Assembly (NCBI RefSeq): GCF_000177235.2
Contig: NC_014829.1
Location: forward strand, 3,038,001 to 3,102,000
Origin: Evansella cellulosilytica DSM 2522
Lineage (GTDB): Bacteria; Bacillota; Bacilli; Bacillales; Salisediminibacteriaceae
Reading direction: 5' to 3'
Length of the DNA stretch: 64,000 nucleotides
Every line of letters begins with the position of its first letter. Positions within the stretch are counted from its first letter, which is position 1. The notes below the pieces were generated by a model. That model searched no databases. It had not been told where the DNA came from and worked only from the letters and a program-made list of their open reading frames with translations. Positions 12,801 to 43,594 of this stretch are shown here, in pieces. Position numbers and translations under genes: made by a program.

Positions 12801-13493
12801 TTACTCTAACAAACCATATTTCCGCTTAAATCGTTCTAATATTTTTATCCAAATACCTCCGAACACGAGTAGAAAAATGACGTTCGATACCGCATGCATT
12901 GTATCAAAAGGAGCACTCATTAAAAAGTATGGTATTAATAATCTCATATCTAATAAAGCTTCTGAGCCGAAAGCTGCAAGAAGCCCCCATAAGTTCATAA
13001 TCCAACCAAATAAAAATCCCCAGCTAATCGCAAAAAGAACTTTCCCCCAAGTTTTTTTCATAAAGGACTGATTTCTTAATAGTCCTGCAGTAAATCCGAC
13101 TAGTCCCCAGGCAATCATTTGCCACGGGGTCCAAGGACCTTGACCTAACACCATATTGGAAGAAAGTGCAGCTACTACACCGACTATTAGACCTGTCTCT
13201 GCTCCGAATACTAATCCTGCCATCATAATGACAAAGGTTGTCGGCTGTACACTAGGAATACTCGCAAATGGAATGCGGCTCACCGCAGCAATTGCAGCAA
13301 GTACTGCAAGTAATACGATTTCCCGCGCTTCAATAACTCGCCTTTCAAAATGAACAAGAAAAAGTAATATAGCAGTAATGATAACGCCAAAGCTTAAGAA
13401 TAAATAATGATTCACCCACAGAAGAGAGACAATGATAAAAATAATAAGCAGTGCGAAAATAAGTAGGCTCACTAATCCTTTCTTTGCTCGCAT
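12801..13493 (-). CDS. ECF transporter substrate-binding (S) component, probable cobalamin type
   Basis: A 230-residue membrane protein with about seven to eight hydrophobic segments. In the central domain, REIVLLAVLAAIAAVSRI and then GAETGLIVGVVAALSSNM are typical of S components. It is the last gene of a cobalamin-riboswitch operon and its start overlaps the ATPase gene by 22 bases, so it is the dedicated S unit of this transporter. Cobalamin or a corrinoid precursor is the inferred substrate, by regulation and neighbours, as for CbrT-type S components. GGAGGCAGTACTGTT precedes the ATG. Confidence 0.82.
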   Translation of the reverse strand: MRAKKGLVSLLIFALLIIFIIVSLLWVNHYLFLSFGVIITAILLFLVHFERRVIEAREIVLLAVLAAIAAVSRIPFASIPSVQPTTFVIMMAGLVFGAETGLIVGVVAALSSNMVLGQGPWTPWQMIAWGLVGFTAGLLRNQSFMKKTWGKVLFAISWGFLFGWIMNLWGLLAAFGSEALLDMRLLIPYFLMSAPFDTMHAVSNVIFLLVFGGIWIKILERFKRKYGLLE

Positions 13494-15112
13494 AACAGTA
13501 CTGCCTCCTCAATTGTTAAAACGTCGTCTCTCTCACCACGAAATAACCGTTGCATCATTGTCGTGTAAAAAAAGTTTCCTTTAAAGAATTGACTTGGTGT
13601 ATTTTCAGAAGTAATTTTCCCTTGAAACATCATACCGCATCTAGTTGCATGCTTTGCAACAAATTCTATATCATGAGAAGTGATTAATATTGTTACACCT
13701 TGCCGTTTCAATTCAACTAATATACTAGCTAACTGCTGCTTAGAAATAGGATCTAATCCCTTCGTTGGTTCGTCCAAAAGTAAAATCTTTGGCTTTCTTA
13801 TCAATAAGCATGCTAATGCTACTTTCTGTAACTCTCCACCACTTAAATCATACGGATGTTCCCTTAAAAGGTGTAAAATATTTAATCTTGCTAATAGCTC
13901 TGTAACCTCAACTTTATTTGTGACGTCCCATTGCTTTACTGTGTATTCTATTTCTTCTTCTACTGTCTCTCGAATGAAAAATAGCTTGGGGTTTTGTGGT
14001 AAATAGCCTATATCACCTACTATTTCTTTTCTAATAATAGATTTTAATTTTCTCTTCTCTAAAAGGACTTTTCCTTTTTGAGGTTTAATAATACCACAAA
14101 GAATTTTCAGAAATGTCGATTTACCTGAACCGTTCCCTCCTAAAAGCGCATATGTCTCTCCTTTATATAGTGTGAAATTTAAATCTTTAATTACCGGACT
14201 CCGTTCGGTATCGTATGTATAGAACACATGATTGGCACGCAAAATTTCTTCACTTAAGTCAACATCCACAGAGGTGACTTCTTTTTCTCTCATATGTATA
14301 TGAGATTCAATCCAGTTCCTTCCCTCTTTAATATTTAAAGGTACATCCAGTTCATCGTTATTATTAATATGTAAAAATAGAGATGGAATAGACGGAACAA
14401 ACTCTTTTTTATCAGTTGTCCATATATGTTGAACAACCTTTTTAGGATTTCCTTCTTGCACCAATCGCCCTTGATCCAGCAATACGATTTTATCTGCAAC
14501 AGAAATTACTTCTTCTAATCGATGCTCTGCCATAACAATAGTGATACCGAATTCTTCATTCAAACGAATGAGCATCGATAAAAAATCGCGAGCACTCACT
14601 GGATCTAGTTGTGCTGTAGGTTCATCTAAAAGTAATATGCTAGGTTGCATTAACAAAACCGAAGCTAAATTAAGCTGCTGTTTTTGACCACCTGAAAGCT
14701 CATGGGTCTTACGTTCTAGTAATTCCTGTGCTCCCATATAATGAACCATTTCAGCAACCCTATTCCTCATTTCACTCGTTGATAGGCCTATATTTTCAAG
14801 ACCAAATACAAGTTCATGTAATACTTCCTCCGCTACTACTTGATTTTCTGGATCTTGAAACACGAAGCCAATATCATGACTATTCTTGATGGTATTGATC
14901 TCGTTATTTTCAAAATTAATACTTCCTGTCTCTGTCCCGTGGGGCTTAATATCATTTTTTAATAATCGAAGTAGTGTACTTTTACCACTACCAGAAGGGC
15001 CAAACAAAATAACAAATTCTCCCTTCTCTATGTTTAGAGAAAGATTGTCAAGTGCAGGACGAGATGAATGAGGATAGGTAAATGACACATCACTTATTTT
15101 AATAAACGCCAT
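13472..15112 (-). CDS. ECF transporter ATPase, two fused nucleotide-binding domains (EcfA-A')
   Basis: A 546-residue fusion of two ABC ATPase domains. The first has Walker A GPSGSGKST at about 38-46, signature LSGGQKQQLNLA and Walker B ILLLDEPTAQLD. The second, from about residue 290, has GGNGSGKST, LSGGELQKVALA and ILLLDEPTKGLD. Both catalytic sites look intact. It powers the ECF importer with EcfT and the S component. In B. subtilis the general ecfA1 and ecfA2 are separate genes beside ecfT in the ribosomal-protein region, so this is a second, dedicated module. Its start overlaps the EcfT gene by 19 bases. Confidence 0.9.
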   Translation of the reverse strand: MAFIKISDVSFTYPHSSRPALDNLSLNIEKGEFVILFGPSGSGKSTLLRLLKNDIKPHGTETGSINFENNEINTIKNSHDIGFVFQDPENQVVAEEVLHELVFGLENIGLSTSEMRNRVAEMVHYMGAQELLERKTHELSGGQKQQLNLASVLLMQPSILLLDEPTAQLDPVSARDFLSMLIRLNEEFGITIVMAEHRLEEVISVADKIVLLDQGRLVQEGNPKKVVQHIWTTDKKEFVPSIPSLFLHINNNDELDVPLNIKEGRNWIESHIHMREKEVTSVDVDLSEEILRANHVFYTYDTERSPVIKDLNFTLYKGETYALLGGNGSGKSTFLKILCGIIKPQKGKVLLEKRKLKSIIRKEIVGDIGYLPQNPKLFFIRETVEEEIEYTVKQWDVTNKVEVTELLARLNILHLLREHPYDLSGGELQKVALACLLIRKPKILLLDEPTKGLDPISKQQLASILVELKRQGVTILITSHDIEFVAKHATRCGMMFQGKITSENTPSQFFKGNFFYTTMMQRLFRGERDDVLTIEEAVLLCEQRKD

Positions 15113-15972
15113 CGAATTTTGCCTCCGACTTCAATCAATAATGGAATACTTAAAAAAATGACAAAACAAAAGAAATAAAACGATTCAATATGACTTAAGA
15201 AAAGCGAGTCCATTACTGGATATATTTTTAAATGCAAGTAGCCATTTATTCTACCAATAATACAAATAGTAAGGAACAAGATGAGTGAAATGAGTAAGAA
15301 GTAGTCCATTCTTTTAAATCGAAAATGTTCATAACTGCTTCTTTTGTGTTTACCATATTCCCTCGCCTTCATAGAATCTGCCGTCTGTATGGCCTCTTCT
15401 AACGAGAAAGTTAAGAGGGCTTGTACATATAACAAACCATTTTTCACTCGATCCCTCCATCTTCCTCCATTCACAAATATACCTTTACTTTGCTGAACGA
15501 CAGAGATGTCATCTAACCGTCGCTTCATTAAAGGGATAAATCGTAATGTTAACATGAGTAAGACAGCAAACTGTGGTAGAAATCTTGCAAAGAGGTATAA
15601 TAACTTATTCGGAGTCATGACTTCATTGTAAGATATGAAGAGAGAGATGACACACATAATTGTTAAAGCTGTTATACTTCCGTTGACAACCGCTTCTAGT
15701 GTTATCCTATGTCCAAACACCTCAAATAATATGTGCTGACCTCTTTCATTAAAAACAGGGTTTAAGATAATGATTAATGCACCTGAAATGATGATAAAGA
15801 AAGCCCATTTCCTAAAACCTCTTAATCGATCTTGGGCGTAGTTAACTAGTAATATTAATATAAATGCGGCTCCCAAAACAGTAGGATGCTGGTATACCAT
15901 TAATAAAATGATAACACCAGCATAATAAAAGAACGTAACGAACGGATGAAAATGCTCAAATCGATTTATCAT
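15094..15972 (-). CDS. ECF transporter transmembrane component EcfT
   Basis: A 292-residue membrane protein of the CbiQ/EcfT family. It has about five hydrophobic segments with a long cytoplasmic loop. The coupling motif SMKAREYGK (A-R-x-Y-G) contacts the ATPase; a second motif, RFIPLMKRRLDDI, lies upstream. It overlaps the lipoprotein gene by four bases (ATGA) and the ATPase gene by 19, so translation of the operon is probably coupled. Confidence 0.88.
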   Translation of the reverse strand: MINRFEHFHPFVTFFYYAGVIILLMVYQHPTVLGAAFILILLVNYAQDRLRGFRKWAFFIIISGALIIILNPVFNERGQHILFEVFGHRITLEAVVNGSITALTIMCVISLFISYNEVMTPNKLLYLFARFLPQFAVLLMLTLRFIPLMKRRLDDISVVQQSKGIFVNGGRWRDRVKNGLLYVQALLTFSLEEAIQTADSMKAREYGKHKRSSYEHFRFKRMDYFLLISLILFLTICIIGRINGYLHLKIYPVMDSLFLSHIESFYFFCFVIFLSIPLLIEVGGKIRWRLLK

Positions 15973-16796
15973 GATTCACTCGTATAATCCTCTGTATATT
16001 TCCAATATATCTTATCTCCCTCTTTAACAGATGTAGCCCCAGCGCTCCTAGTTAAACTAGTTCCATTAATATATGCTAACCAACCACTTAACGGTCCGTA
16101 ATCAAATTCATATACATTATAGATACCTTTGACATAGGCTGTTACCCCTCTCCCACTATAATCTACATGAATATTACGTTTATTCGCTTCTTTTAATAAT
16201 ATATCTAGCACTGTATCTCCGTCCGCATACTCTACCGTTACTTCTCCAATAATCGTACCTATATCTTTAGGGCCTTGGACAGTTAACGTTACAGTTGGTA
16301 AATTATTATCTTCTTCTGATGGAGTTGTACTTTCGTTAGACTTATCTGATTTGTTACTATCCTTTTGATTATCAGACTCTTTTTTTCTCGGTTCTTCTGG
16401 ATGTGAACGCTCTTCCTTTTGTGATTGACTTTTCTTTTCACTCGAATCATTATGATTACTACTTGATGACTCTTCACGATCTTCTACTGTATCAGCACTA
16501 GTAGATTTGCTTGAATTTGCAGTTTCACTATCATTCGGATCATCTTTATGTAAAGATTCCTCTACCTTTTCAATAGATTCCTCTTTTTCTTCCGTATTAT
16601 CGTCTATTTCCACTTCATTTATTTTTAAGTCATTATTAATATCGCTAAATTTCCGTTCACTTATAGCATCTTTTCCAGTCAAATCAGAAATCGTTAATGA
16701 AGAGCTATTTTGTCCTTGTCCACAACTAACTAAAAATAACACCATGACAGTAAATAGGAGTAAACGAAATAACTTACTTATATAAGTGACCTTCAA
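15969..16796 (-). CDS. Lipoprotein with DUF4430 (transcobalamin beta-like) domain
   Basis: A 275-residue lipoprotein. The signal peptide ends in lipobox LVSC, so Cys25 would be lipidated. Residues about 45-165 are a hydrophilic Ser/Glu/Lys/Asp-rich spacer. Residues about 168-270 form a DUF4430 domain, with YADGDTVLDILLKEANK, then YEFDYGPLSGWLAYING. DUF4430 is related to the C-terminal beta domain of intrinsic factor and transcobalamin, which covers bound cobalamin. With the riboswitch and ECF genes, this points to a membrane-tethered corrinoid-binding protein. The start is a TTG at 16796 after AGGAGGGAAACAAG. Confidence 0.85.
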   Translation of the reverse strand: MKVTYISKLFRLLLFTVMVLFLVSCGQGQNSSSLTISDLTGKDAISERKFSDINNDLKINEVEIDDNTEEKEESIEKVEESLHKDDPNDSETANSSKSTSADTVEDREESSSSNHNDSSEKKSQSQKEERSHPEEPRKKESDNQKDSNKSDKSNESTTPSEEDNNLPTVTLTVQGPKDIGTIIGEVTVEYADGDTVLDILLKEANKRNIHVDYSGRGVTAYVKGIYNVYEFDYGPLSGWLAYINGTSLTRSAGATSVKEGDKIYWKYTEDYTSES

Positions 16797-17134
16797 CTTG
16801 TTTCCCTCCTATAAATGTATATCGGTTTATTATCTCGATTCTTGTTCTTCAAAAAAACGTGAGTAAAGAGGATGACTCAAAAGGCACTTTTATACCTTTT
16901 GAGCCAAACTATAAGCTAAGCAGGGTGTCTCCATAGTAACTACTCTAAGTGGATCGAATAAAAGAAAGTATAAGAATCGAGTGTAGCCATTGCCATGACT
17001 TTCTATAGACTATGAGACAGCCTCATCCTAACAAAATCGTAGTTGTTACTCTAAGCTTACATAATATAAATAAACGGTATGTGATGTCAGTTTCTTACCT
17101 GACTTCACTTCATACTTTTTTAAACTTTTTTTAT
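16797..17134. repeat. Gap inside the cobalamin operon with a family C hairpin
   Basis: 338 bases without a gene separate the two surface-protein genes. A family C palindrome lies at 16866-16909 (GAGGATGACTCAAAAGG, then CCTTTTGAGCC). Further right, GAGACAGCCTCATCC at about 17011 resembles a family A/C arm. If the hairpin terminates, expression downstream would be reduced or would need its own promoter. Confidence 0.6.
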
Positions 17135-18436
17135 TTAATTCAATACTTTTCTTCTTTGTGTAAAAAAGATAACTGTCCCAATGAGAAAGAATAAAGCACC
17201 AAGAGCAAGTACATGATAATTGGAAGTTGCTGTGTCAGGAAGGCGTTCTCCTTCTTGACTAGTGGTTTCTGTTTCGTTTGATGATTGATGTTCTGCCTGA
17301 TTATTATTCTCGTTACCATTTGATTCTCCATCAGTTACAACTACCTGTTCATTGTCAACCTCTTGATCTTCTTTGAGCTTTTCCTTTTTTTCCTCTTCTT
17401 CAATTAACTCTTCTTGTTCTTCAGTGTCAACATCACCCGGGGAATCTACAGGTTCCTGTGTCTCTTCATCATTTGGATCCTCGACCTGATCACCTGGAGT
17501 TTCTTCGATAGGTTCAGGTTCAACCTCCGGCTCTACATAACTAAAGTCATATAAATGACTAACTCCTAAATTGTTATAAGCTACTAAAGCTTGAAATGCT
17601 TGTTCTGTTGACATACTATTTTCTGATGTATCGCTTAATAGCCATTTATATGCACCGTTTTCTAGTTGGTAATCTAGTAAATGTTGAAGGGGGTGGTGTC
17701 CATCATTATAAAAAGGCTCTTGTGTAACATCGACTCCTACAGATGACAATCCTATAATAACCTGAGCTGCAGTGTTTGAGTTAACACCCCAGTTATCAAA
17801 CCCTCCGTCTTCTTGCATGACGTCAGCTAATAATGTAACAGCCTTGTCAATTTCAGCTTGTACTTCATCTCGATCTTTATAAAAACCAAGAGCTGTTAAT
17901 GCCATGCCCGTGAAATCTAAATCGGCATTAACACCATCCCAGCCCCAACCACCATGAGGTAGAGATTGTTCTAGAATTTTATTTAATAACTTTTCTTCTG
18001 TCCACAAAGCGTCTTCAGGTATATCGTATTCCCCTGTATTTAGTGCAATCAATCCATAAATTTGCGCAGATAGCATATTTATAAATTCATCAGAATATAC
18101 TTTCTCGATTAAGTTTACCCCTTCAAAGTCTGTAGGGTCCTCGCCTATTGCAGCTACAGCAATGACCATTCTCTGTAAACTAGTACCCCTTAGTACTTGA
18201 TCCAGATCCTCAACTAAATACCCTCTATAAAGTTCAGATACGTCATCTGGTAAATGATTAGCCTTCGCCAATGCTGCTATGGACCAATCTGTATAATGCT
18301 CTGTTTCAATTAAGTGTGCAGCAGTTCGTTCTATATCTTGTTTCACCTCTTGACTAGCTAACACATTCAACGGAAATAATAATAGAACAAGTATCATTGC
18401 GACAATAGATTTTCTTAATAAAAGTAATTTAGACAT
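17135..18436 (-). CDS. Sortase-anchored alpha/alpha-barrel (prenyltransferase-like/transcobalamin alpha-like) surface protein
   Basis: A 433-residue secreted protein. A signal peptide covers residues 1-27 (LLLFPLNVLA). Repeats of the prenyltransferase/squalene-oxidase type fill about 30-300, such as GGWGWDGVNADLDFTGMALT, GGFDNWGVNSNTAAQVIIGL and GAYKWLL. An acidic Pro/Glu spacer of about 95 residues follows. The end is a cell-wall anchor: LPDTA at 399-403, a hydrophobic helix, and QRRKVLN. The alpha6/alpha6 fold is that of the cobalamin-binding alpha domain of intrinsic factor. The gene directly follows the cobalamin riboswitch, so a wall-anchored corrinoid receptor is inferred. GGGAGAGCGAAAA precedes the ATG. 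Confidence 0.85.
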   Translation of the reverse strand: MSKLLLLRKSIVAMILVLLLFPLNVLASQEVKQDIERTAAHLIETEHYTDWSIAALAKANHLPDDVSELYRGYLVEDLDQVLRGTSLQRMVIAVAAIGEDPTDFEGVNLIEKVYSDEFINMLSAQIYGLIALNTGEYDIPEDALWTEEKLLNKILEQSLPHGGWGWDGVNADLDFTGMALTALGFYKDRDEVQAEIDKAVTLLADVMQEDGGFDNWGVNSNTAAQVIIGLSSVGVDVTQEPFYNDGHHPLQHLLDYQLENGAYKWLLSDTSENSMSTEQAFQALVAYNNLGVSHLYDFSYVEPEVEPEPIEETPGDQVEDPNDEETQEPVDSPGDVDTEEQEELIEEEEKKEKLKEDQEVDNEQVVVTDGESNGNENNNQAEHQSSNETETTSQEGERLPDTATSNYHVLALGALFFLIGTVIFFTQRRKVLN

Positions 18437-18473
18437 TTTTCGCTCTCCCTCTTTTTTATGTAATATTTTGGCA

Positions 18474-18498
18474 TAAAAAAAATCCCCTTGAAGGAGAA
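18474..18498 (-). terminator. Terminator hairpin of the cobalamin riboswitch expression platform
   Basis: On the minus strand TCTCC pairs with GGGGA around TTCAA and is followed by eight T's. It lies between the aptamer and the first start codon, so ligand-bound RNA would end here. Confidence 0.7.
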
Positions 18499-18575
18499 GT
18501 TTGTCAAAGAAATAAACTTACAAAACAGTTCACTTCTTAACACCCTCCTATCCTCGTAGTACTGGTGAAAAAATA

Positions 18576-18712
18576 AAATAGGCAGGTTTCCTGGCTCATG
18601 GTCATAGCTTCCTACGTCTTCCCATCATTAAGACAGTGACATACTGTAGGTTGCTCCCATTTACAGTGGCGGGACCGCGTTGGATTTTCACCAAACTTCC
18701 CTATTAAGCTAA
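18576..18712 (-). promoter_or_regulatory. Cobalamin (B12) riboswitch
   Basis: On the minus strand the RNA contains GGGAAGTTTGGTGAAAATCC, GCCACTGTAAATGGGAGCAA, and the B12 box AGCCAGGAAACCTGCC at about 18581-18596. These are the conserved core, receptor region and 3' box of the cobalamin aptamer. It precedes the surface-protein/ECF operon, and a terminator hairpin follows. Adenosylcobalamin binding would switch the operon off. Confidence 0.96.
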
Positions 18713-18840
18713 GATTCTATCACGAGAATTTTAGCACCTATTTTAACTTTCAATATTTTTATGTCGAATGTAATAATAACATAATGGATTGATTAATGTA
18801 TATGATGAATGTTAAAAATTTTTAAAAAACTACTTTAAGA

Positions 18841-41544: not shown

Positions 41545-43594
41545 ATAGAGTAGGCGCATGAAATTATTCATGCGCCTCTCACAGATCCGTACGTGCGGGT
41601 CATCGCATACGGCTCCTCCATGATTATCCCCGTTGGGGATGATGATCATTGTAAAGTTTTACAAGTGAGACAAGACCGATTTCTACGAACCATTCTTTAG
41701 GTAAAGCAGTATGTACTGGGGTAGACAAAGAGCTTCTCCATCTATTCATACGCAATCTAGGGAGATCTCCTTTCCATTTTCTTTTCCTCAGTTCCCTGTG
41801 CAATTTCCTAATATTTCTCCAACTTCTTAATTGAACTGATCTTAATCTTCTACGTATCCATCCATCAAATATAGTGAATATAGTCTTCCCATAAAAGTGA
41901 CCAAAGTAGTTACCCCAACCTCTTAGGTATGGATTAAGTTTTTCTTTAATCAATGTCTCGATGTTTACGGTTTGGTTTCGCCTAGTGATCTCCTTAACCT
42001 TTTCTTTAAATTTCTTTAAAGCTTTAGGAGATGCAGAAACATAATAACCACCCTTGAATTCGTGACCCAAAAATAGAAATGGTTCTTCTAGGTTATTAAC
42101 AACCTTAGTCTTTTCAGGGTGAACCGTTAAACCTAGTTCCTCGTTTAAGAAGCGAGTTACTGATTTAAGGACTCTTTCAGCCCCTTTTTGTGATTTACAA
42201 CATATAACAAAGTCATCAGCGTACCTTGTGATTCGATGCCCCCGTTTTGTCATCAGTTCATCGAGTGGGTGTAAATAGATATTTGCAAGTAATGGACTAA
42301 TAACCCCACCTTGAGGTGTTCCTTTTTCAGTAAGGTGGAAGCTTCCTCCATCCATAACCCCTGCTTGTAAAAAACTCTGAATCAACCGAATAACACTACC
42401 GTCTACTACTTCTTCCCTTACAGCTTGAATGAGTTTATCCTGTGGGATTGTATCAAAGTAGGCTTTTAGATCAGCGTCAATTACGTACACATACCCATCC
42501 ATTAAATCCTTTCGGATTTTCTCTAATGCCATATGTGCACTTTTATTCGGTCTGAATCCGAAACTACAATCCAAAAATTTGTCTTCGAAAATTGGCTCTA
42601 TAATGCGACGTACAGCCGCTTGAACAACACGGTCTCTCACAGTAGGAATTCCTAAAGGTCTTTTCGTCCCATCCGTTTTTGGAATAAATACACGCTTCAC
42701 GGGTCTCGGTCTATAGGCCTTTTCTTTTAATTCACGTTGAAGAACTTGTACATTGTCCTCCACCCCGTGTTCAAAAGTACGGATAGAAACTCCATCTACT
42801 CCTGCAGACCCTCGATTTCGTTTTACCTCTTTGAATGCTTCCTCCATGTTGGACATAGCCCATACCTTATCCATTAAGCTATACCATTTTCTCTTTTGTG
42901 TAGACTTTACTCCATCACGAAAACTCTTCTGATTTAATCTCTCGCTCATGTTCGTATCCTTCCCTTGGCTCTCTCGGATGACTAGCACACGGCATTTTCC
43001 GAGTTTTACCTAAAGTACTCCGTCCCAAACGGTCTACTTACTATTCGACCCCAGTTCTTAGGCTCCACCTCACTGGCTTCTGCTTGGCACATGACGGCTT
43101 TCTAAATTGAATTGCTTTTCTTCCATGGACAGACGGGCTTCGCATCAAGTCCCTTCCTTTTGGGTAAGGGCTCGCCTTAGCAACGCCATGCTAAGTCACT
43201 CGCCATTACGACTTTTCCGACGAGCTTATTCACTAATATCCCCTGCTCTGACTTCTCACCACCCATAATCCCAACTCGCCCCTCACGGACTTGTTTGAGA
43301 GTTACCACTGCATAGCGGAGATGATGAGATCTCCTTGGGTCACGTCATCAAACTTTCCCTCGAACCCAGTCCTCATAACTTACAGAACCCTCTTGTGGCA
43401 CTGGACTTCCCCATCTTTCGCAAGGTTATCCGATTCTGTCAGCCAACATGGTGGTTAGTCGTCTGTTCCGAGATTCGCCTTCAGGTCCTCCACACATTTC
43501 CTCGCGGACATGCACTACCTGTCAGCTATACACTTCCGCCACTTCGGCGTGTTAGGGACTTCCACCCATTAGTTCGATGCGCTGCCAAGCGCAC
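41545..43594 (-). mobile_element. Group IIC intron
   Basis: On the minus strand it starts GTGCGCTTGGCAGCGC at 43594, a class C 5' end. The 3' end has domain V (GAGCCGTATGCGATGACCCG, GCACGTACGGATC) and a domain VI hairpin (AGGCGCATGAA/TTCATGCGCCT), ending near CTACTCTAT at 41545. A reverse transcriptase is encoded inside, and no endonuclease domain follows, as expected for class C. It is directly preceded by a hairpin with TTTTTC, the usual target of class C introns. Length about 2.05 kb; it appears intact. Confidence 0.9.
41624..42949 (-). CDS. ltrA: Group IIC intron reverse transcriptase/maturase
   Basis: A 441-residue intron-encoded protein. RT blocks in order: VFIPKTDGTKRPLGIPTVRD, SFGFRPNKSAHMAL, DADLKAYFDTI, GTPQGGVISPLLANIYL and the catalytic YADD at 243-246. 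The thumb/GIIM maturase region is LNPYLRGWGNYFGHF. No HNH endonuclease domain follows, typical of class C. It ends in a basic tail. The ATG at 42949 after GGGAAGGATACGAAC is chosen over 42988. It splices and mobilises the intron that holds it. Confidence 0.94.
   Translation of the reverse strand: MSERLNQKSFRDGVKSTQKRKWYSLMDKVWAMSNMEEAFKEVKRNRGSAGVDGVSIRTFEHGVEDNVQVLQRELKEKAYRPRPVKRVFIPKTDGTKRPLGIPTVRDRVVQAAVRRIIEPIFEDKFLDCSFGFRPNKSAHMALEKIRKDLMDGYVYVIDADLKAYFDTIPQDKLIQAVREEVVDGSVIRLIQSFLQAGVMDGGSFHLTEKGTPQGGVISPLLANIYLHPLDELMTKRGHRITRYADDFVICCKSQKGAERVLKSVTRFLNEELGLTVHPEKTKVVNNLEEPFLFLGHEFKGGYYVSASPKALKKFKEKVKEITRRNQTVNIETLIKEKLNPYLRGWGNYFGHFYGKTIFTIFDGWIRRRLRSVQLRSWRNIRKLHRELRKRKWKGDLPRLRMNRWRSSLSTPVHTALPKEWFVEIGLVSLVKLYNDHHPQRG

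Follow-up and report, generated by a model that had tools for sequence, protein, structure and literature searches.

Whether a toroid protein fixed to the cell wall and a DUF4430 lipoprotein fixed to the membrane jointly sandwich a corrinoid outside the cell is the question raised by a five-gene operon of Evansella cellulosilytica DSM 2522. The stretch of DNA analysed here, called the window below, comprises 64,000 nucleotides (nt) of that genome (GCF_000177235.2, NC_014829.1, positions 3,038,001–3,102,000); the operon and the riboswitch ahead of it all lie on its minus strand, from 18756 to 12801. We read the locus, with a probability of about three in four, as an operon for corrinoid uptake through an ECF-CbrT-type importer, equipped with a cobalamin riboswitch and with Gram-positive surface proteins resembling transcobalamin. 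When B12 is scarce, the riboswitch would permit expression of the operon; the wall toroid and the membrane lipoprotein would capture extracellular corrinoid and concentrate it near CbrT; and import across the membrane would be the work of CbrT together with the EcfT and EcfA-A' of the operon.

The riboswitch and the importer

A first-pass annotation, made from the letters of the window, had placed a B12 riboswitch at the head of the operon, and a full-length match to RF00174 was found there (18756–18564, minus strand; 117.7 bits against a gathering threshold of 31.5; E 7e-29). It is one of three cobalamin riboswitches in the genome. The terminator annotated behind it stood in part: a hairpin followed by U8 is present, but it is weak, with six pairs (18497–18483), and its bases are also used by a longer hairpin of -26.6 kcal/mol (z -2.84) within 18472..18566. 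The two structures suggest that the expression platform switches between a terminator and an antiterminator. Judged from its sequence, the operon is apparently under the control of vitamin B12, which would repress it.

All five reading frames of the annotation were found on the minus strand at the coordinates given there (Table 1), and the last three encode, as it had proposed, an energy-coupling factor (ECF) importer: EcfT, a fused EcfA-A' ATPase, in which TIGR04520 and TIGR04521 both exceed their cut-offs, and an S component. Successive genes from 2 to 5 overlap, by 4, 19 and 22 bases. All five genes would lie on a single transcript, a statement kept conditional because genes 1 and 2 are separated by 338 nt (the median in 60 relatives is 69, and the gap is wider in six of the 60) and because a repeated palindromic element lies in between. 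This element consists of two parts of about 50 nt each (about 17026–16978 and 16918–16864), about 110 nt apart; it matches 41 stretches of its own genome at E≤1.1e-4, itself counted, and six other genomic places hold both parts at similar spacing, so that it resembles a MITE (miniature inverted-repeat transposable element) or a REP-type (repetitive extragenic palindromic) repeat. One part forms a 15-pair hairpin (16906–16873), which could reduce read-through into gene 2.

At E≤1 the S component matches a single PDB sequence, 6fnp_A (E 1.1e-14, over residues 56–227 of the query), presumably the B12-specific S component of ECF-CbrT. CbrT is said to have been predicted by Rodionov et al. in 2009. 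In the accessible part of its 2018 description, ECF-CbrT of Lactobacillus delbrueckii is a characterised importer, which transports cobinamide as well as cobalamin (PMC5997447). The window operon is like it in having a homologous S component and an ECF module, and unlike it in having its own A-A' and T components, with the ATPases fused, and two surface proteins. It also differs in about 55 extra N-terminal residues (13329–13493) ahead of the part of the S component that matches CbrT; since the matches of many relatives begin at residue 1–5 of the S-component query, this extension is often common to them. BtuFCD, which resembles the present system in taking up B12 with the help of a capture protein outside the cytoplasm, was ruled out: as the annotation had noted, the operon contains no BtuF/BtuCD gene, for neither PF01497 nor the FecCD family gave a Pfam match in the five proteins. 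PF01497 occurs in just one gene of the genome; this gene stands beside frames read as two different FecCD-like permeases and an ATPase, and looks like part of a siderophore system rather than of BtuFCD.

The host has B12-dependent enzymes. A MetH activation domain (its frame flagged with one TAA), NrdJ (606 bits) and a corrinoid adenosyltransferase were found in the genome, and CbiD, the only marker of B12 synthesis that was searched for, was not; thus the organism uses B12 and probably does not make it by the CbiD route. Of the other two cobalamin riboswitches, one immediately precedes a frame read as metE, and the other immediately precedes frames taken to be nrd genes for reductases independent of B12. 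At this nrd locus (L087:3864-9939) the riboswitch is followed by what were read as an aerobic nrd pair and the anaerobic nrdD and nrdG, and a sub-threshold match to the NrdJ model there fits a reductase. Because a riboswitch precedes B12-independent nrd genes in a genome that also has NrdJ, a B12-gated choice of ribonucleotide reductase is possible.

A search with the S component gave 104 confirmed places in genome contigs, the best 80 of which were kept as loci (L numbers below). Sixty of these 80 contain the toroid, DUF4430, T, A and S genes in the same order and on the same strand; some of the remainder are cut by contig ends or distant. A strict text pattern for the B12 box was met upstream in only 34 of the 80 loci, and riboswitch positions were therefore taken from a genome-wide Infernal search for 49 loci chosen from the 80, and assigned to the loci by coordinates, not by contig names. 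Every one of the 49 genomes searched has a cobalamin riboswitch, and in 44 of them, among the matches listed, the distance from it to the first downstream toroid or DUF4430 gene is at most 400 nt. The distance is 2.2 kb in L065, and the matches listed include no upstream cobalamin riboswitch on the same strand for L044, L068, L072 and L075. Three loci from Evansella and Litchfieldia records (L004, L005 and L007) appear to be genus mates of the window, because their riboswitch coordinates equal those of the same-genus genomes G007, G002 and G005.

The wall toroid and the membrane lipoprotein

The product of gene 1 is the LPDTA-anchored alpha/alpha-repeat protein of the first-pass annotation: it has a signal peptide, a toroid at about residues 27–305, an acidic linker and an LPDTA sorting signal that matches the LPxTATN-type profile NF058670 (43.5 bits; cut-off 32) and Gram_pos_anchor (21.6 bits; cut-off 20). 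The sortase family PF04203 occurs at four places in the genome. Residues 27–305 were modelled from 75 sequences as 12 helices, with a predicted local distance difference test score (pLDDT) of 95.5. DUF4430 was not detected in this protein, either by Pfam at E≤1 or with an iterated DUF4430 profile. The domain lies on the product of gene 2 (PF14478, E 1.7e-15, residues 193–268), likewise annotated before as a DUF4430 lipoprotein. Its N-terminus, ...LFLVSC, was read as a lipobox, from which export is predicted; GGAGG precedes the TTG start, and the domain retains all 21 columns that are conserved at ≥90% in 15 relatives.

The annotation had described the two halves as separate proteins. They are indeed separate here, but the arrangement is atypical. 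The iterated profile, run over all toroid proteins of the loci, placed DUF4430 within the toroid chain in 40 of the 43 relatives with an LPXTG-type motif (the window protein being the 44th with such a motif): two copies in 35, one in four (L017 being cut by a contig end) and three in one. These fused-type relatives usually encode a DUF4430 lipoprotein in addition. Besides the window protein, the LPXTG proteins without DUF4430 are those of L019, which is cut by a contig end, and of L065 and L077, from Latilactobacillus fuchuensis and L. graminis. The latter two share with the window an LPXTG-anchored wall protein with toroids only, a separate DUF4430 protein (confirmed by Pfam) and the same gene order, and differ from it in having two tandem toroids. 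By contrast with the window, the wall proteins of the genus mates L004, L005 and L007 each have two DUF4430 domains by Pfam (E 5e-26, 1.1e-19 and 1.4e-24, respectively). Ten further toroid-only proteins, some of them cut by contig ends or with broken frames, have no LPXTG motif; these are mostly clostridial, and several adjoin separate DUF4430 proteins. In Paenibacillus (L031, L034, L035, L036 and L037) giant surface proteins have the order toroid-DUF4430-DUF4430-toroid, and the L036 protein also has SLH anchor domains.

The complete separation of toroid and DUF4430 in the window is thus real, and an exception among wall-anchored relatives; with 40 of the 43 fused, genus mates included, it looks derived. 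It is seen in two distant groups, the window lineage and Latilactobacillus, and in both most of the wall-anchored relatives are fused, so that it may have had more than one origin.

The window toroid is also divergent. Its identity to 11 relatives is 34–42%; among nine of these the figure is 46–70% (L033 and L040 are 41–50% identical to the rest). Within the taxonomic family of the host its distribution is patchy: at E≤1e-10 it was found in six of 35 genomes, its own included, all six within its genus, though the divergence of the query could hide others. The S, A, T and DUF4430 proteins of the window, however, show about the same distance to their genus-mate counterparts as those counterparts show among themselves. 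The end branch of the window toroid in a quick tree of 37 rows is 1.88 (median 0.42), as against 0.25 for S and EcfT together. Horizontal replacement of the toroid gene was considered because of the low identity, but in the same tree the toroid falls in the expected 13-row Bacillaceae group, with a weak support of 73, and grouping with L004, L005 and L007 is not rejected (approximately unbiased test, p-AU 0.27). Rapid change following the loss of domains would be a simpler account. The window toroid seems to have lost its in-chain beta domains and changed fast, with its core kept: it retains 15 of the 17 columns of ≥90% conservation, among them D148 and T150, which are invariant across all 75 toroids, and Q253. 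Either it is now paired with the DUF4430 of the lipoprotein, or its former task has been relaxed.

The second of these alternatives leads to the strongest competing explanation, in which only the lipoprotein, with CbrT, handles the corrinoid, and the wall toroid, having lost its B12 role in this lineage, is drifting or now serves as a general surface protein. The loss of DUF4430 from a wall protein that bears one to three copies in nearly all anchored relatives, the low identity and long branch of the toroid beside the ordinary ones of its operon partners, and two loci (L030 and L045) that have a DUF4430 gene and in which no toroid was found all speak in its favour. Against it, the toroid reading frame is intact and its model is of high confidence, 15 of the 17 most conserved columns, D148, T150 and Q253 included, are kept, and the gene has been retained directly behind the riboswitch. 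We consider this explanation rather doubtful, though far from negligible.

Likeness to transcobalamin and other explanations

The general concept is not new. As far as the accessible text of Burroughs et al. (2007) goes, SLBB domains were described there as fused to toroids, with wall anchors and in operons with CbiO and CbiQ; these surface proteins were proposed to scavenge B12, several of them acting together, and transfer to animals was proposed as the origin of the animal proteins (PMC1796856). DUF4430 is located at the C-terminus of transcobalamins, according to the part of a second paper that is accessible (PMC4350170), and we equate it with the transcobalamin-like clade of SLBB. The window operon resembles the 2007 systems in its exported DUF4430-type domain, toroid, wall anchoring and CbiO- and CbiQ-like genes, and departs from their usual architecture, toroid and SLBB in one chain, in having DUF4430 on a separate lipoprotein (PMC1796856, same extent). 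The complete split is the new and narrower part. In the open-licence literature we found neither a binding test of the 2007 proposal, subscription journals being mostly outside this scope, nor later work testing these surface proteins, the accessible part of PMC12075633 included.

With transcobalamin, intrinsic factor and haptocorrin the surface proteins share a toroid fold and a DUF4430-type beta domain; they differ in being two separate anchored proteins and in that the toroid has no match to PF01122 (Cobalamin_bind). The likeness is clearest in the Paenibacillus protein L036, whose natural chain has a toroid next to DUF4430, in the order of transcobalamin. The 15 best PDB folds for its fused model (40 sequences; pLDDT 90.4; predicted template modelling score, pTM, 0.71) are all transcobalamin, intrinsic factor or haptocorrin, with E from 2.8e-10 to 2.8e-8, the next best having E 5.5e-5; these scores cover toroid and DUF4430 jointly. 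Together with the domain types of the window proteins, the riboswitch and the CbrT-type importer, this leaves the transcobalamin reading of the surface proteins well supported in outline.

Several results weigh against it. The superposition of the L036 model on transcobalamin gave TM scores of 0.38–0.51 and root-mean-square deviations of 9–11 Å, so that the domains match in order but are placed differently relative to each other. No cobalamin binder was among the PDB sequences listed at E≤10 for the toroid, DUF4430 and fused profiles (built from 23, 16 and nine sequences, respectively; for the toroid, the best 60 of 61 matches), and a sequence link of either domain to the animal cobalamin binders of the PDB was dropped. 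PF01122 matches one of the 75 toroids, that of L. fuchuensis (25.4 bits; cut-off 25); none of the individual stretches reaches the cut-off alone, however, and the match is absent from a whole-protein scan at E≤0.1. The likeness of the window toroid to the intrinsic-factor fold, expected in the first-pass annotation, was borne out only as one match among many: transcobalamin chains do match (TMq 0.58–0.64), but they stand at ranks 28, 29, 32, 34, 36 and 37 of the 50 folds listed, behind farnesyltransferases and terpene cyclases (TMq 0.65 for the farnesyltransferase ranked first). The modelled toroid on its own is therefore not diagnostic for transcobalamin over other alpha/alpha toroids. It also retains only 26 of the 34 columns conserved at 80%, and just four of the other 74 toroids retain fewer. 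Finally, a second DUF4430 lipoprotein of the genome is remote from all three B12 riboswitches, and DUF4430 may thus not be restricted to B12. That protein, of 150 amino acids (G000:C1:529179-529631; L088:8180-8632), is flanked by frames read as a glycoside phosphorylase and signal peptidase II.

On the transcobalamin-like reading the two surface proteins could act in two ways. They might form a two-part transcobalamin in trans, in which the wall toroid and the membrane DUF4430 cap close over one corrinoid and their opening delivers it to CbrT; the lipoprotein may then be the only cap encoded in the operon. We offer this sandwich tentatively, with the odds against it; that the two proteins bind corrinoid separately has about the same likelihood.

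What the operon carries is a further point. Import of another corrinoid (cobinamide or another cobamide) or of cobalt, rather than of B12 itself, would agree with the membership of EcfT in the CbiQ family and with the cobinamide transport of the L. delbrueckii importer. Cobalt is opposed by the CbrT-like S component, for which no match to CbiM was found, and by the failure to find CbiD, as that route of synthesis then makes no demand on cobalt; cobinamide import is compatible with the uptake reading given at the outset as well. We regard this explanation as improbable. Class II terpene cyclases typically bear a DXDD motif. That the toroid protein is an extracellular enzyme of terpene cyclase, prenyltransferase or polysaccharide-lyase type is very improbable, and class II cyclase identity was ruled out: at E≤0.001 Pfam matches the window toroid to SQHop_cyclase_C only (22.5 bits, below its cut-off of 26.1), squalene-hopene cyclases are the best PDB sequences for the toroid profile, farnesyltransferases lead the fold list and a polysaccharide lyase stands at rank 33, but the aligned fourth position of DXDD is Asp in none of the 75 toroids (alignment to squalene-hopene cyclase), and the protein is exported, wall-anchored and encoded downstream of a B12 riboswitch.

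Layout of the locus and its bearing on B12 capture

The features of the operon are collected in Table 1. Elsewhere in the window, a group II intron, matched by RF02001 and RF00029, occupies 41545-43511 of the minus strand and contains a frame of 454 amino acids (42988-41624) read as a reverse transcriptase.

Table 1. Positions in the window of the riboswitch, the five genes and the gap between the first two (aa, amino acids)
Feature	Position	Strand	Evidence
Cobalamin riboswitch aptamer (RF00174)	18564..18756	-	cmscan, 117.7 bits
Putative expression platform (long hairpin, or short terminator hairpin with U8)	18472..18566	-	folding
Wall-anchored alpha/alpha toroid protein, 433 aa, without DUF4430	17135..18436	-	sorting-signal profile, structure model
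Gap of 338 nt between genes 1 and 2, with repeated palindromic element inside	16797..17134	-	
Lipoprotein of 275 aa with DUF4430 (SLBB, transcobalamin C-terminal type); TTG start	15969..16796	-	PF14478
EcfT transmembrane component (CbiQ family)	15094..15972	-	PF02361, E 5.1e-12
Fused EcfA-A' ATPase, 546 aa	13472..15112	-	two ABC_tran stretches, 231 bits
S component, CbrT homologue	12801..13493	-	PF12822, E 6.9e-12

The complete split is worth a binding test. It is a natural version of the system in two small halves that can be expressed separately, and therefore makes the mechanism of a cap closing on a toroid, and the hand-over to an ECF importer, testable piece by piece. It is also relevant to the capture of a scarce vitamin on the outside of Gram-positive cells whose importer lacks a soluble binding protein, and to the proposal, in the accessible text of the 2007 paper, that the B12 carriers of animals came from Gram-positive surface proteins (PMC1796856).

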